From the NCBI RefSeq assembly GCF_011947285.1, contig NZ_JAAOZT010000007.1, positions 248,001 to 312,000 of the forward strand: DNA of 64,000 bases. Reading direction: 5' to 3'. Origin of the DNA: Glaciimonas immobilis. GTDB taxonomy: Bacteria; Pseudomonadota; Gammaproteobacteria; Burkholderiales; Burkholderiaceae_D. Shown piece after piece: positions 6,411 through 42,509 of the stretch (its first letter is position 1; each line of letters starts with the position of its first letter). The notes under the pieces were generated by a model that did not search any database, was not told the DNA's origin, and worked only from the letters and a program-made list of their open reading frames with translations. A program made the translations under genes and the position numbers.

Positions 6411-6413
6411 TAG

Positions 6414-6590
6414 GACTCCTGCCGTGTTCGCCATTGCCATAATTCCTTGAACCATTTTTACGCAGCGGTTACGGAATATCGTTTGATGGGCGTGATCGTC
6501 GCTAGTCCGATGAACCCGAAATTGAACTAACTGTAGCCAACTTGAACCTTCTTGGTTCAGGATGCCGGTAAAGCGGCACGCGCGGGAATC
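6414..6590 (+). ncRNA. ssrS: 6S RNA
   Basis: 6S RNA mimics an open promoter and holds sigma70 RNA polymerase in stationary phase. About 177 nt lie between a consensus promoter and a terminator. The ends pair in a long closing stem: GACTCCTGCCGTG at 6414-6426 against CACGCGCGGGAATC at 6577-6590, with one mismatch and one bulge. The right half holds the family-typical CTTGAACC..TTGGTTCA hairpin (about 6541-6559), and the position between zapA and a downstream housekeeping gene is the usual one for ssrS. The ends are estimated to within a few bases. Confidence 0.88.
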
Positions 6591-6600
6591 AAATTTGAAA

Positions 6601-6630
6601 GCAGTTGCATGCAGATGCAACTGCTTTTTT
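6601..6630 (+). terminator. Rho-independent terminator after 6S RNA
   Basis: GCAGTTGCAT (6601-6610) pairs perfectly with ATGCAACTGC (6615-6624) around a four-base loop, followed by six T residues. It may separate ssrS from the EVE-domain gene. Confidence 0.85.
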
Positions 6631-6833
6631 CGTTTTTTGGTAATTTTGATTGGTCACGCGTATATTCTGAGGCTGCCCTTTCGGCGTACTCTATTGTGTC
6701 GTTAGCCTGTCCCTCGGCTGCTCAAGCGGTTCCGTGGAGGTCTCTCGTCCGTCCGACGGCATGGCATCAAGCGTACTCTTGGATGCGCTGCCGGAATTTT
6801 ACTGCATTTAATGTTGAGCTCGGTGATCGCAAA

Positions 6834-7301
6834 ATGCAATATTGGTTAATGAAATCCGAACCGTCAGATGCAAGCATTGATGACGTGTTGGCGTCGCCAA
6901 ATCAGACGATTCCCTGGTATGGCGTGAGAAATTATCAGGCGCGTAATTTTATGCGGGACTTGATGCGGATTGGGGATGGCGTGCTGTTTTATCATTCCAG
7001 TTGCGCGGAGCCGGGGATTGCCGGGATCGCTGAGGTGGCTAGCGTTGCTTTCCCTGACTCTACACAATTTGATCGTGGTGGTAAATATTACGACCCTAAG
7101 GCGACGCCTGAAAATCCGCGCTGGATGATGGTGGATGTGCGTGCGGTAAAAAAGACGCAGTTGATGAGTTTGGCTTTTTTACGGGAAGAGCCTGAGTTGG
7201 CGGAGATGCAGATTTTGCGGCGGGGGAATCGGTTGTCTATTACGCGGGTTGAGGTGGGGGAGTGGCGGTGGTTGATTCGGCATTTGAAGGATGCTTCTTA
7301 G
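6834..7301 (+). CDS. EVE domain-containing protein
   Basis: A 155-residue protein of the EVE/thymocyte nuclear protein 1 family, PUA-like folds that bind modified bases in RNA or DNA. The start MQYWLMKSEPS, the central WYGVRNYQARNFMRDLM motif and the later ENPRWMMVDV are family hallmarks, and the length is normal. The frame is open farther upstream, but the codons before 6834 run into the 6S terminator and do not resemble the family, so ATG 6834 is chosen. The cellular substrate is unknown. The gene is transcribed away from ssrS as a single unit. Confidence 0.9.
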   Translation: MQYWLMKSEPSDASIDDVLASPNQTIPWYGVRNYQARNFMRDLMRIGDGVLFYHSSCAEPGIAGIAEVASVAFPDSTQFDRGGKYYDPKATPENPRWMMVDVRAVKKTQLMSLAFLREEPELAEMQILRRGNRLSITRVEVGEWRWLIRHLKDAS

Positions 7302-7361
7302 GGAGACGTTTTAAGTTATCTAGTTAAGATTCGGTTTTTGGTTCATAGGTCTATAGGTCGA

Positions 7362-7460
7362 TAGCATCCACGGAGCACTAACCATTTTAGCTATCGATCA
7401 ACCGAACTAACCAAATGGCTAGCAATAAACCATAGAATCTCAAACATGTATTCCGACAAT
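7362..7460 (-). repeat. Dispersed intergenic repeat, copy 1 (internally deleted)
   Basis: This stretch matches 41149-41333. From TAGCATCCACGGAGCAC to the CAACCGAAC segment the two copies are virtually identical, then copy 1 lacks about 78 bases and resumes at AACCAAATGGCT, continuing to about TTCCGA with a few changes. The missing piece in copy 2 is bounded by near-identical AACCAAA direct repeats, so copy 1 looks like a slippage deletion. On the minus strand the small ORF of copy 2 is broken: after ATG GTT TAT TGC comes TAG. Confidence 0.85.
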
Positions 7461-7521
7461 TCCTGACTGACAGTCGAAATAACCGGCATCAGCTATGACG
7501 GGGTAGGTCAACTGCCGATCC

Positions 7522-7566
7522 AACTTGAACTTGAACTTGAACTTGAACTTCAACTTCAACTTCAAC
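7522..7566. repeat. Hexamer tandem repeat
   Basis: About four AACTTG units run directly into about four AACTTC units. TTGAA and TTCAA are complementary, so the two halves could also fold on each other with a C-C mismatch each six bases. It lies about 70 bases from the lgt stop and encodes no supported protein. Confidence 0.85.
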
Positions 7567-7638
7567 TGCCTTGGCGGACAACTGCGAGTAGGGGGCCGGG
7601 GCTTCAGTATTAATCGCCCCGGTTATTATCTTCCTTCG

Positions 7639-8463
7639 CTAATTCGCCAACTTGTTCTTAATCCCTGCATAGTGCGGATTGCGATACGCCATCACTAATA
7701 AAATGATCCCGAGTATGACCATTGGTATCGACAGCATTTGGCCTGCAGAAATCGTAATGCCTTCAAATGTGACGTTGTAATCGGGGATCCGAAAATATTC
7801 GGTGAAGAAACGTGCGCAGCCGTAAAGCAGACTGAACATACCGGCGACGGCCATTCTTGGGCGCGGTTTGCGGGAAAATATCCAGAGAATAATGAATAGC
7901 AAAATGCCGTCTACCAGCATTTGATAAATAGGCGACGGATGACGCGGCAGGTTATCGACGTTGGGCCAAATCATGGCCCACGGCAGCGATGCATCGGCTA
8001 CGCGGCCTGGGAGTTCTGCGTTGATAAAATTGCCGAGACGGCCTGCGGCATAACCAAGTGGCACCATCGGCGCGATGAAATCCATGATATCCATTAATTT
8101 CCGGCCTTTTTTTCTGCCCCACCAGGCCATCGCCAGTAGCACGCCTAAGAATCCTCCATGGAATGACATGCCGCCATTCCAGACGGCCATGATCTGGGAA
8201 GGATTATGAAAGTAAAAGACAGGATCATAAAAGAAGACCTGCCCCAGTCTTCCCCCAATGACGACCCCTAGTACGCCATAAAACAGCATATCATCCAGAT
8301 CTTCTTTTTTCCAACCGTCGGCTGCGATGTGCGGTTGTTTAATTCTGATTCTTCCGACCCAAATAAATTGGATAAAAGCTAGCAAGTACATCAGGCCGTA
8401 CCACCGGACGTGAAGCGGTCCGAGAGAGAAGGCAATTGGATCAGGCATTGGATGTATCAGCAT
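7639..8463 (-). CDS. lgt: Prolipoprotein diacylglyceryl transferase
   Basis: Lgt moves a diacylglyceryl group from phosphatidylglycerol to the lipobox cysteine of preprolipoproteins, the first step of lipoprotein maturation, in the inner membrane. The 274-residue protein has about seven membrane segments, the N-terminal [18 protein letters not shown] block, [10 protein letters not shown], and the signature [14 protein letters not shown] (around residue 140) with the essential Arg and Asn. Length and start agree with the family. The start codon directly abuts the stop of the upstream LysR gene, with no bases between, so the two are probably cotranscribed. Confidence 0.97.
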
Positions 8464-39150: not shown

Positions 39151-39495
39151 ATGGAAGTGTCACACACCATCACCAATCTAATCATATTTGTACTGGCGAT
39201 TTATGTCGGTTACCACGTGGTCTGGACGGTTACACCAGCATTGCATACGCCATTGATGGCGGTCACCAACGCGATTTCTGCGATCATTATTATCGGCGCG
39301 ATGTTAGCTGCCGGACTGACTGAAGGTCTGGTCGGACAGATCGCCGGTACGCTGGCCGTAGCCTTGGCCGCGGTCAATGTATTCGGTGGCTTTCTGGTCA
39401 CGCAACGAATGCTTGAAATGTTTAAGAAAAAAGAACCGAAGGTAAAAGTACTTGCCGTTGAAGCCGAAACCAAAGTTAAAGCAGGAGCGCATTAA
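39151..39495 (+). CDS. pntAB: NAD(P) transhydrogenase subunit alpha, part 2
   Basis: A small membrane subunit of 114 residues with three or four helices (NLIIFVLAIYVGYHVVW, AISAIIIIGAMLAAGL and GTLAVALAAVNVFGGFLVTQ), the membrane part that in E. coli is fused to PntA. GGGGAG lies just before ATG 39151; the frame is open 19 codons farther but those have no ribosome site. The stop codon overlaps the pntB start by one base. Confidence 0.94.
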   Translation: MEVSHTITNLIIFVLAIYVGYHVVWTVTPALHTPLMAVTNAISAIIIIGAMLAAGLTEGLVGQIAGTLAVALAAVNVFGGFLVTQRMLEMFKKKEPKVKVLAVEAETKVKAGAH

Positions 39496-40955
39496 TGGGT
39501 GCTGAAATCGCTAGTTTGTTAAGCATGAATCTGGTCACGATGTTTTACCTGATTGCGTCGGTGTGTTTCATACAGGCGCTCAAAGGACTGTCGCATCCTT
39601 CTACTGCACGGCGCGGCAACGCGTTTGGCATGGGCGGGATGGCGCTGGCGATTGTCACCACGATTGCACTTATCATCAAACTCAAGGTGGAATCGCAAGG
39701 TGCCGGATTCGGTTTTTGGTTAGTCGCCGGCGGTGTCGTGGTCGGTGGCGGTATTGGTGCGTATTTAGCCAAGAGCGTTGAGATGACCAAGATGCCGGAA
39801 CTGGTCGCGGCGATGCATTCGCTGATCGGTCTGGCAGCGGTCTGTATCGCGGTCGCAGCAGTGTCGGAGCCATGGGCGTTCGGGATTGCCGCGCATGGCG
39901 CAGCGTTGCCGGTTGGTAACCGGATCGAGCTATTTATCGGGACCTTTGTCGGCGCGATTACGTTCTCGGGATCGGTGATTGCTTTCGGTAAATTGTCGGG
40001 AAAATACAAGTTCCGTCTGTTCCAAGGTGCACCGGTCAGCTTTGCCGGTCAACACTTTATCAATCTGTTACTGGCCGTCGCCATGCTGGTGCTTGGCATT
40101 ATCTTTGTCATGACGCAGGCATGGTTGCCGTTCATATTGATGGCATTGATCGCGTTTGTGTTGGGCGTGCTGATCATTATTCCTATCGGTGGTGCGGACA
40201 TGCCAGTGGTGGTGTCTATGTTGAACAGCTACTCTGGCTGGGCTGCGGCCGGTATCGGTTTTTCGTTGAATAATTCGATGCTGATTATTGCCGGTTCACT
40301 GGTTGGTTCTTCCGGTGCCATTCTGTCGTACATCATGTGTAAGGCGATGAATCGTTCGTTCTTTAATGTGATTTTGGGGGGCTTTGGTGGGGATACTGCG
40401 ACGGCTGCGGCGACTGGCTCACAAGTGCAGCGTCCCGTTAAATCGGGTTCTGCTGACGATGCTGCGTTTCTTTTGGGTAATGCAGAAACGGTCATCATCG
40501 TGCCGGGGTATGGCTTGGCGGTGGCACGTGCACAACATGCATTGAAAGAGTTGACTGAGAAGCTGACGCACAAAGGCGTGATTGTCAAATATGCGATTCA
40601 TCCGGTGGCAGGGCGTATGCCGGGTCACATGAACGTATTGCTGGCGGAAGCGGAAGTGCCTTACGATCAGGTGTTTGAGATGGAAGACATCAATAACGAC
40701 TTTAGTCAGGCGGACGTGGTGCTGGTGCTGGGGGCGAATGATGTGGTGAATCCTGCTGCTAAAGATCCGAAATCATCGATTGCGGGGATGCCGATTTTGG
40801 AAGTTTATAAGGCTAAAACTGTTATCGTCAACAAGCGTTCAATGGCTTCTGGTTACGCCGGGTTGGATAATGAATTGTTTTATATGGATAAAACTATGAT
40901 GGTGTTTGGGGATGCCAAGAAGGTGATTGAGGCGATGGTTAAGGCGGTCGACTAA
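39495..40955 (+). CDS. pntB: NAD(P) transhydrogenase subunit beta
   Basis: PntB holds the proton channel (about eight helices in the first 280 residues) and the NADP(H)-binding domain III at the C-terminus. The 486-residue protein shows the domain-III signature IVPGYGLAVARAQHALKEL and YAIHPVAGRMPGHMNVLLAE, with later VVLVLGANDVVNPAA. The complex couples hydride transfer from NADH to NADP+ with proton flow. It is the last gene of the operon, and a terminator follows at 40976. Confidence 0.97.
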   Translation: MGAEIASLLSMNLVTMFYLIASVCFIQALKGLSHPSTARRGNAFGMGGMALAIVTTIALIIKLKVESQGAGFGFWLVAGGVVVGGGIGAYLAKSVEMTKMPELVAAMHSLIGLAAVCIAVAAVSEPWAFGIAAHGAALPVGNRIELFIGTFVGAITFSGSVIAFGKLSGKYKFRLFQGAPVSFAGQHFINLLLAVAMLVLGIIFVMTQAWLPFILMALIAFVLGVLIIIPIGGADMPVVVSMLNSYSGWAAAGIGFSLNNSMLIIAGSLVGSSGAILSYIMCKAMNRSFFNVILGGFGGDTATAAATGSQVQRPVKSGSADDAAFLLGNAETVIIVPGYGLAVARAQHALKELTEKLTHKGVIVKYAIHPVAGRMPGHMNVLLAEAEVPYDQVFEMEDINNDFSQADVVLVLGANDVVNPAAKDPKSSIAGMPILEVYKAKTVIVNKRSMASGYAGLDNELFYMDKTMMVFGDAKKVIEAMVKAVD

Positions 40956-41018: not shown

Positions 41019-41077
41019 ATGGGATGTAGCTATTGGGTAGCGCAACACGTTCGATTATTCGGTAATTAAAGCGGTTT

Positions 41078-41165
41078 GTGCTTCGTGGATGCTGGCCGCG
41101 TATGGCCCGGCAGCGAGTTATTTTTTTGCTTCGCTAGGCGCCCCCGACTAGCATCCACGGAGCAC
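41078..41165. repeat. 16-bp inverted repeat at the edge of the dispersed repeat
   Basis: GTGCTTCGTGGATGCT (41078-41093) and AGCATCCACGGAGCAC (41150-41165) are complementary at 15 of 16 positions and 56 bases apart. The right arm is exactly where similarity to the other repeat copy (7362) begins, so the arm marks an element boundary. The spacer holds an AGCGA/TCGCT pair and a T-run. Confidence 0.8.
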
Positions 41166-41333
41166 TAACCATTTTAGCTATCGATCAACCGAACCAACCA
41201 AAACGGCTCAACGTCGTCGGCGCTCCATTCACATCCTTAAATTTAATATTCACCGCATCGCCAAACAATAAGTAACCAAATGGCTTGCAATAAACCATAG
41301 TATCTCCAACTTGTTTCCGATACTAAAAGCAGG
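41149..41333 (-). repeat. Dispersed intergenic repeat, copy 2 (longer form)
   Basis: This is the longer partner of 7362-7460. It contains about 78 bases that copy 1 lacks, bounded by AACCAAA direct repeats (41196-41203 and 41274-41280). On the minus strand it carries an uninterrupted 37-codon ORF with a ribosome site. It lies between the pntB terminator and the stop of the ubiquinone hydroxylase gene. Confidence 0.85.
41185..41298 (-). CDS. Candidate 37-residue protein encoded in the dispersed repeat
   Basis: An ATG-to-TGA frame with GGAG seven bases before the start (GTTGGAGATACTATG on the minus strand). The product starts MVYCKPFGYLLFGDAVNIKF, continues with a polar KDVNGAPTTLSR stretch and ends FGWFG: aromatic and Gly-rich at both ends, with one cysteine and no charged tail. 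The match between the element and the frame, and its loss by a stop and a deletion in copy 1, suggest it may once have been a real small gene. No family is recognised. Confidence 0.4.
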   Translation of the reverse strand: MVYCKPFGYLLFGDAVNIKFKDVNGAPTTLSRFGWFG

Positions 41334-42509
41334 TTAGCGTCGCCCAAACATCATTTGCTCGGCCAGCATATTTTTTGCTGGCTGAATAGCATCCACTAAA
41401 CCGAGTGATAACCCTAGCAGGGTTTGTGAGAGGGCGCCTTCCGGGGCGCTGGCGAATATACGGGCCATTATGTCTGTCATGCGGATTGTTATGCTGCGGT
41501 CGGATTTTCTGCTGAGGGTGAACTTTTCCAGCGCTGCAGGGGTGACTTCCTGGGCTAACAATTTAGCTAATACCGTGGCATCGCGTAGTCCCAGATTGAG
41601 ACCTTGGCCTGCGACCGGGTGGAGGGTCTGGGCGGCGTTGCCGATGGCGACGGTATGGGTGGAAGTGGTAGGGTTTGCGTTTAGGCCTAGTGGAAAACTG
41701 TTCCGTTGGGAGGTACGGATAAAACGTCCTATGCGAGCGCCAAAGGCCTCCGCCAGCGCTTGTAGAAATAGTGCGTCATTCAACCCCAGCAGTTGTGCAG
41801 CGTTAGCGGTGCGCACGCACCAGACTAACGCGTAGCCGTCGTCCTGCGGGAGTAGCGCTAGCGGGCCCTGATCGGTAAAGCGCTCAAAGGCGCGATGGGG
41901 AATTGGTGCGCTGGTGTGCACGTGCGCGACGATGGCAATCTGGTTGTAATCGCGTTGCAGCTCTTTGCAGGTTTGTGCGCCGAATAAACCGCCTTCGGCT
42001 TGTACCATCACTTTGCAATGCATACGGTGGCCATCCGATAGCGTCATCGTAACGCCGCGCGTGTGATCGTCGCTTGTGCTGACCTGAAGCGGACGCAAGA
42101 GCGTGATCTCTTGCAGCGCTGGCAAGGCGGCCAGCGCTGTGACCAGATTGCCGTAACGACTGACGTAACCCAGCGCTGGTAATTGATATTCATCGCGTTC
42201 AATAAATGTTCGGCCAAAATGTCCCCGTCTTGAGACGTGAATCTGGTGGATGGCGGTGGCGGCTACTGGCCACGCGCCGATGTCTTCCAGAATCTGGCGA
42301 CTGCCGTAAGAAAGCGCCAGCGCGCGAGGATCAAGACGGGCCTGATCAATTGTTTTGCCATCGATTAGCGCTATCCGGTCTGGTGCGATGCCGCGTTTGA
42401 CCAGTAAGGCGGCGAACGCCATTCCCACCGGTCCGGCACCGCAAATCGCGATATCGGCATGGATGATATTGCCTGCATCTGATGTTGTTTTTGATGTGCT
42501 GTCGGTCAT
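41334..42509 (-). CDS. UbiH/UbiF/VisC-family FAD-dependent hydroxylase
   Basis: A 391-residue flavin monooxygenase of the ubiquinone-ring hydroxylase group. It has the N-terminal FAD dinucleotide motif IAICGAGPVGMAFAALLVKRG, the middle MTLSDGHRM region, and the family signature GNAAQTLHPVAGQGLNLGLRD (about residue 290). It probably adds one of the ring hydroxyls in ubiquinone synthesis; which position (C1, C5 or C6) cannot be told from sequence alone. It starts seven bases after the pepP stop, so the two form an operon. Confidence 0.9.
   Translation of the reverse strand: MTDSTSKTTSDAGNIIHADIAICGAGPVGMAFAALLVKRGIAPDRIALIDGKTIDQARLDPRALALSYGSRQILEDIGAWPVAATAIHQIHVSRRGHFGRTFIERDEYQLPALGYVSRYGNLVTALAALPALQEITLLRPLQVSTSDDHTRGVTMTLSDGHRMHCKVMVQAEGGLFGAQTCKELQRDYNQIAIVAHVHTSAPIPHRAFERFTDQGPLALLPQDDGYALVWCVRTANAAQLLGLNDALFLQALAEAFGARIGRFIRTSQRNSFPLGLNANPTTSTHTVAIGNAAQTLHPVAGQGLNLGLRDATVLAKLLAQEVTPAALEKFTLSRKSDRSITIRMTDIMARIFASAPEGALSQTLLGLSLGLVDAIQPAKNMLAEQMMFGRR

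Follow-up and report, generated by a model that had tools for sequence, protein, structure and literature searches.

The genome of Glaciimonas immobilis carries a family of intergenic repeats whose fold is specific to one strand and is kept by matching mutations, and two worn members of this family lie in the 64,000-nt stretch of DNA analyzed here (the window). The family is spread widely over the phylum, takes positions that relatives seldom share and avoids gaps that would hold two promoters. On balance, we read the window copies as decayed members of a non-autonomous, mobile family of structured repeats that would work like REP/BIME elements; what we propose below on the enzyme, the inserted form and the effect on the host is what we infer from these observations.

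Two mosaic copies in the window

An initial annotation had described a 185-bp intergenic repeat in the window, present as one intact and one deleted copy. The recurrence itself was confirmed, as positions 7362-7415 match 41149-41202 over 54 nt at 98%, and a similar right part is present in both copies (7405-7449 and 41270-41314, 45 nt, 89%). The spacings of these two matches are 33787 and 33865, exactly 78 apart, and the 78-nt difference between AACCAAA repeats was thus correctly given. Both sites are intergenic, copy 1 in a gap bounded by ORFs at 6552-7301 (+) and 7639-8463 (-) and copy 2 in a gap bounded by ORFs at 39495-40955 (+) and 41334-42509 (-). The repeat is real, but 185 bp is not the extent of the unit, which is longer at both sites. 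The following features were assigned, with the corresponding stretches of the loci L097 (copy 1) and L098 (copy 2) in parentheses:

7345-7364, no strand: (ATAGGTCG)2.5 tandem, a repeat array at the left border of copy 1
7363-7415, minus strand: unit end with the terminal box (unit positions 5-56, inverted), then the short-form junction, in copy 1 (L097 1164-1216, converted)
7439-7532, plus strand: right half of a unit (unit positions 206-299), with one arm of the long hairpin and the start of the hexamer tail (L097 1240-1333)
7522-7567, no strand: (AACTTG)7.7 hexamer array, of the type of tail that ends a unit
41049-41134, plus strand: unit remnant (unit positions 13-99) with the terminal box at 41078-41095, H1 and half of H2 (L098 1150-1235)
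41141-41202, minus strand: end of a second unit with its terminal box, inverted (unit positions 5-65) (L098 1242-1303)
41203-41333, plus strand: long-form linker module, which holds the 78 nt missing from copy 1 and is partly present elsewhere in the genome

Both copies are worn, decayed mosaics of a unit of about 270 bp, and the distinction between an intact and a deleted copy was not supported. In copy 1 (7362-7567), an inverted unit end with the terminal box is joined by a short linker to the right half of a unit, through which the copy runs on into a hexamer array that ends at 7567. In copy 2 (41049-41333), two unit starts, the second of them inverted, are fused and precede the long linker. 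The copy begins at about 41049 with the inverted partner of its own left end, and, as read by eye, a deletion between C-rich stretches apparently joined its second unit (41141-41202) to the first. The 78 nt, taken at first for a deletion, separate two recurring sub-forms, short and long. Since the short-form junction recurs in four copies of the genome (L075, L077, L079 and L097, the last being window copy 1), the short linker represents a sub-form rather than a deletion private to copy 1. A covariance model of the unit gave a weak match on copy 1 (7351-7492, minus strand, 14.7 bits, E 0.045) and none at E <= 0.1 in a larger search. The sole Rfam match of the window at gathering score is a 6S RNA gene at 6413-6592 (+).

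Copy number and anatomy of the unit

The supposition that the repeat belongs to a family with many intergenic members was borne out. With the 185-nt copy 2 as query, 58 matches (E <= 10, self included) were found in the genome (4.91 Mb, 31 contigs), 49 of them at E < 0.01, and a longer query taken from one family place gave 131 matches at E <= 1. We compared 41 stretches around matches, and the repeat is common to 39 of them, with none in L073 and L089. Because the model found no unit in 20 hand-picked 20-kb stretches outside the clusters already listed, the cluster list of this genome is close to complete. Four contig ends (the end of C1, the start of C2, the end of C9 and the start of C31) fall inside units, so that the unit count is a lower bound.

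Alignment of these places gave a complete unit that is asymmetric and about 270-300 bp long. It comprises, after the terminal box (GCTCCGTGGATGC), a pair of hairpin modules, then a long hairpin whose conserved loop reads TTTGAG..GCGAGTT, and lastly a tail of (CAACNN)n. Read with the terminal box first, the order is GGTTNCTGCTCCGTGGATGC, the H1 module, the hairpin H2 with its GTTACTT arm, then GGCGACCGC, a small hairpin, the long hairpin, GGCAACG and the hexamer tail CAACNN. Units occur singly, with the terminal box at one end only, or as inverted pairs with a common tail region, and diverging pairs have the box inverted at both ends.

Genes were also seen next to units. At five places of the own genome (L071, L078, L096, L099 and L101), unit ends adjoin another repeated block, which is about 600 bp long and carries a small gene pair; its second gene encodes about 130-140 aa, and the L078 copies of this gene gave no match in Pfam. 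In another genome (G565, L185 1540-4709), two short inverted units with equal model scores enclose genes for a PAAR-motif protein and a Tae4 amidase effector, an arrangement that resembles a passenger cassette.

A fold specific to one strand

Three alignments were used: A1, with 41 of the 69 units that were near complete (own genome 21 of 42, relatives 20 of 27); the core alignment A2, with 39 of these 41 (L074 and L088 excluded); and A4, with 142 model matches from many families (136 distinct), which is fitted to the model and so leans to it, and which includes a few weak antisense overlaps. The strand that folds is the reverse of the one read above with the terminal box first. It runs from the hexamer tail, here (GTTGNN)n, through P1, which closes a junction with the very long hairpin P2 (conserved loop) and the small hairpin P3, to a polypyrimidine tract, the hairpin H2, two interlocking short helices and the terminal box.

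In A1, the consensus energy was -69.9 on the folded strand and -29.7 on the other, and for 40 of the 41 sequences the folded strand also had the lower individual energy; the preference holds with the 20 relatives alone (-78.7 vs -62.6). Each strand, tested on its own predicted pairs, leans to itself (229 vs 48 and 17 vs 255), and thus only the 25 pairs predicted on both strands make a fair test; among these, 39 wobble cells favor the folded strand and 6 the other. Across the 52 pairs of A2, 96.7% of the cells are paired, compared to 34-48% in slid versions, both sides change in 38 pairs, and double-change cells number 303 against 80.5 +- 8.4 in shuffles. Both-side changes reach 52 of 52 pairs in A4, with 1631 double-change cells vs 397.3 +- 23.0. 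The loop halves TTTGAGC and GCGAGTT (one mismatch allowed in each) are found together in 41 of 49 A4 rows from the own genome, 38 of 39 from the same family and 40 of 54 from others. Template switching can even out long imperfect palindromes and so imitate compensatory change where no selection acts; the wobble bias and the two short interlocking helices speak against its being the whole cause of the covariation.

The H1 module contains these interlocking helices, which overlap in pseudoknot order (A1 positions 30-34/42-46 and 38-41/48-51). Their double-change cells number 36 vs 12.8 +- 2.8 in shuffles; a contrary measure, however, the count of further pair types, falls below the shuffles (5 vs 7.8), and the number of pairs with both-side changes is not unusual, with 91 of 500 shuffles reaching the same value.

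The polypyrimidine tract that precedes H2 is a parallel match to the H2 purine arm, exact in 28 of 45 informative units, compared to 8.5 +- 2.2 (maximum 17 in 1000 shuffles) with shuffled arms and 5 exact antiparallel matches. This test took the 7 nt directly after the loop under the rule A-T, G-C, T-G, in an interval refined after the data had been seen, and dropped 97 of the 142 rows (40 duplicates, 10 without the arm, 7 short or with N, 40 mirror-symmetric); 3 of the 28 matches depend on the T-G rule. In three units of the own genome, a T in the H2 arm faces a G in the tract. Three tests with badly placed intervals had given 4 of 101 exact matches in either direction; 6 of 93 exact vs 8.5 shuffled, with a mean score of 6.39 vs 6.14 +- 0.06; and 2 exact, with a mean over 69 informative units of 0.818 vs 0.739 +- 0.008. 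The parallel match may be the signature of a base triple or of a mirror repeat, and we treat it as a post hoc lead rather than a proof.

Spread over the phylum and comparison with databases

Within the GTDB family of the window, blastn found a match in 94 of 245 genomes and 25 of 44 genera (E <= 1e-5). Over the phylum, the covariance model R1, run with strict filters and six candidates scored per genome, found a unit in 61 of 398 genomes and 41 of 213 genera (E <= 0.001). Raw model matches in the five genomes of the genus were 50 (own), 24, 9, 20 and 23, and units often stand as diverging inverted pairs, both in this genome and in those of several other families. A 24-nt loop pattern occurred in 12 stretches, 10 from Collimonas, one from Glaciimonas soli and one from Oxalicibacterium solurbis, and the exact 23-mer of the terminal box in none, in a collection of genome contigs that may omit records of or near the own genome.

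Single units used as blastn queries gave no match in 72,556 plasmid records (L069), in 50,697 phage records (L110) or in E. coli genomes (L203). L110, L203, L188, L197 and L113 had no Rfam match at gathering score, and a permissive Rfam scan of six loci returned 12 matches, all under gathering, and the best of them, MIR7526 and isrG, were far under it. No name for the element was seen in the literature searched, which mostly excludes subscription literature, and a search with the motif letters gave nothing relevant on bacterial repeats. Our claim of novelty is limited to this absence from Rfam 15 and from the literature searched.

Units lie behind genes and at positions that relatives seldom share

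By hand tally, the 38 own gaps are 17 convergent, 21 co-directional and 0 divergent, compared to 47, 158 and 45 among 250 background gaps (Fisher 0.0012 for convergent and 0.0014 for divergent). The own set is 44 rows less 5 at contig ends and less 1 repeated gap, and its gaps were called with ORFs >= 70 aa, those of the background with ORFs >= 100 aa. In other genomes, 38 of 48 loci had both flanks, with one place counted twice (L117 = L166), and these were 13 convergent, 23 co-directional and 2 divergent. In 20 of 25 co-directional gaps with a single unit, the folded strand lies in sense (10 of 12 own gaps and 10 of 13 from other genomes; two-sided p 0.004), a count that rests on hand-entered rows.

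Members sit mostly at positions not common to relatives. In comparison with 60 unit loci of four other genomes of the genus, a unit lies between both orthologous flanks for 3 of 39 own clusters (L072 with L258, L082 with L301 and L100 with L254), which is a lower bound, as 60 relative loci were compared for 76 raw matches of these genomes. In L075, L076 and L097, one flank lies near a unit of a relative. The gap of L100 has no unit in G096 (L298, 3942-4187), and the lgt-EVE gap, where window copy 1 lies, carries no element in L142 and L144, which by eye keep the gene order. The pntB-hydroxylase gap of window copy 2 holds in L137 a shrunken inverted pair of terminal boxes, also by eye. Among the five genus genomes, no empty site was found at base resolution, and the gaps of relatives do not align. 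The low sharing of positions could partly reflect loss rather than gain.

Loss is also part of a different explanation, namely that the units are an inherited, selected RNA element of gene 3' ends (terminator, processing or protection) that does not move, its positions differing through rearrangement and loss. Such an element would account for the strand-specific fold and its strong pairing constraint, for the enrichment at gene 3' ends, mostly in sense, and for the base-triple-like match between tract and H2 purine arm (post hoc). We consider it rather unlikely, given that a unit between both orthologous flanks was seen for just 3 of 39 clusters, that the genomes of the genus carry 9-50 raw copies, and that inverted pairs and partial copies occur.

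A Y1 transposase as candidate mover

The own genome has one Y1_Tnp match (L031 1408-2121), which scored 22.5 bits as an ORF protein, the cut-off being 23, and 24 bits in another search. Its protein reads NQVQ where an HUH motif is expected, and no units were found around it. Overall, 0 of 21 Y1_Tnp loci from 14 unit-bearing genomes contained a unit at model E <= 1 (L031 and L311-L330, stretches of 2.3-4.5 kb, some ended by contig ends); loci L217-L221, from an earlier set of six, came from genomes without a unit match. A Y1_Tnp match is present in 49 of 61 unit-bearing and 164 of 337 unit-free genomes (Fisher 3e-6, lineage ignored, hand tally), and 12 of the 61 have none. The sequence of L031, its surroundings and the 21 loci do not support RAYT as the mover.

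By eye, an inverted GGGTCAGAGT pair flanks the Y1_Tnp gene in L031. A palindrome with GGGGTC(A/G)GAGT-like arms, similar to this pair, was likewise seen just upstream of the unit in L107, L110-L113, L117, L118 and L120, which belong to other genomes of the GTDB family, in the genus g28.

These data bear on the proposal that the repeats are a true REP/BIME family, moved by a RAYT (Y1 tyrosine transposase) that would cut the folded strand beside the terminal box. Inverted pairs and mosaics do resemble BIMEs, hairpins specific to one strand would suit single-strand cutting, and Y1_Tnp is commoner in unit-bearing genomes. That association ignores lineage, however, and a dozen unit-bearing genomes lack the domain; with a single own candidate that scored below the cut-off as an ORF protein, has NQVQ for the expected motif and lacks flanking units, and no unit at any Y1_Tnp locus scanned, we regard this proposal as unlikely.

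REPs have the size of one short palindrome, whereas the core here spans about 180 nt and combines several stems with a conserved loop. Further differences are the hexamer tail, the single fold found across many families and the lack of a unit-flanked Y1 gene among the loci scanned. In REP/RAYT systems, according to the passages of Nunvar et al. (2010, PMC2817692) used here, the RAYT gene is flanked by two inverted repeats of the family and REP copy number is usually > 100 per genome; our five genomes have 9-50 raw model matches, the own count being a lower bound. Intergenic palindromic repeats with alternating orientation, mosaics and positions that differ between species are likenesses to such systems, and the alternating paired arrangement of BIMEs has its counterpart in the diverging inverted pairs of the own genome and several families. 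We use RAYT-REP as an analogy, membership not being demonstrated.

The ends of the unit

The initial annotation had named target-site duplications and fixed boundaries as marks to look for. The longest word shared by the flanks of 14 single copies averaged 4.71, compared to 4.65 for mismatched flanks, and no target-site duplication was found in these copies, with power limited by the fuzzy right border. The right end is not fixed, the unit passing gradually into a hexamer array whose length varies.

In a bolder reading, quite unlikely in our estimate, the family would be a phylum-wide selfish RNA, a bacterial counterpart of SINEs. The folded strand, with its three-way junction, its interlocking helices and a parallel third strand that would form base triples on the H2 purine arm, would be the form that is copied and inserted, would leave the short tandem hexamer tail behind and would double as a protected 3' end of host messages.

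MITEs are small and non-coding, with terminal inverted repeats and a target-site duplication. The units are likewise small and non-coding, with inverted ends in paired copies; it is very unlikely, nonetheless, that they are deleted DNA transposons of this kind, served by an ordinary transposase. While the box inverted at both ends of diverging pairs and the short inverted box pair in L137 (by eye, at the copy-2 gap of one relative) would agree with this origin, in single units just one end has the box and terminal inverted repeats are lacking, no target-site duplication was found, and the part conserved across families is the internal fold. A one-off local duplication, which the mere two copies within the window might suggest, is refuted by the 58 matches in the genome and by the dozens of genera with units.

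Discussion

We return to the reading that we favor on balance, a non-autonomous mobile family of structured repeats. An enzyme acting in trans would recognize the folded single strand or the terminal box and thereby spread the copies. Insertion would be found behind genes, where harm is least, and, with the folded strand mostly sense, messages would acquire folded 3' tails, which might be tolerated or used in end protection, processing or termination. Inverted pairs may recombine, producing truncated mosaics like the window copies, and may sometimes bracket passenger genes. Against this reading stand the mover, the target-site duplication and the base-resolution empty site that were sought and not found, and the lack of a plasmid or phage match for the one unit compared with each, which is unusual for a mobile element.

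Diverging unit pairs are also present in L197 and L198, which we take, by eye, to carry Pasteurellaceae uptake-signal motifs. Intergenic dyad sequences of Haemophilus influenzae, thought to be important for the mobility of gene loci (PMC4144887), are alike in being intergenic, a comparison made by description; the source passage is silent on a strand-specific fold and on wide spread. The stem-loop sequence families, among which Hin-1 and Pam-1 are described as built from uptake-signal repeats (BMC Genomics 2008, PMC2267715), are similarly multi-copy, often intergenic, structured and thought to fold as RNA, and the passages used here hold no description of the fold of the present unit.

If our reading is true, one conserved folded element, absent from Rfam 15, lies behind many genes in many proteobacterial families. 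The family would then be a natural test bed for the movement of gene-less folded repeats, and for asking whether message ends in bacteria may hold a conserved base triple and a pseudoknot. The units also account for assembly breaks, as at the four contig ends of the own genome, and for some spurious small ORFs.
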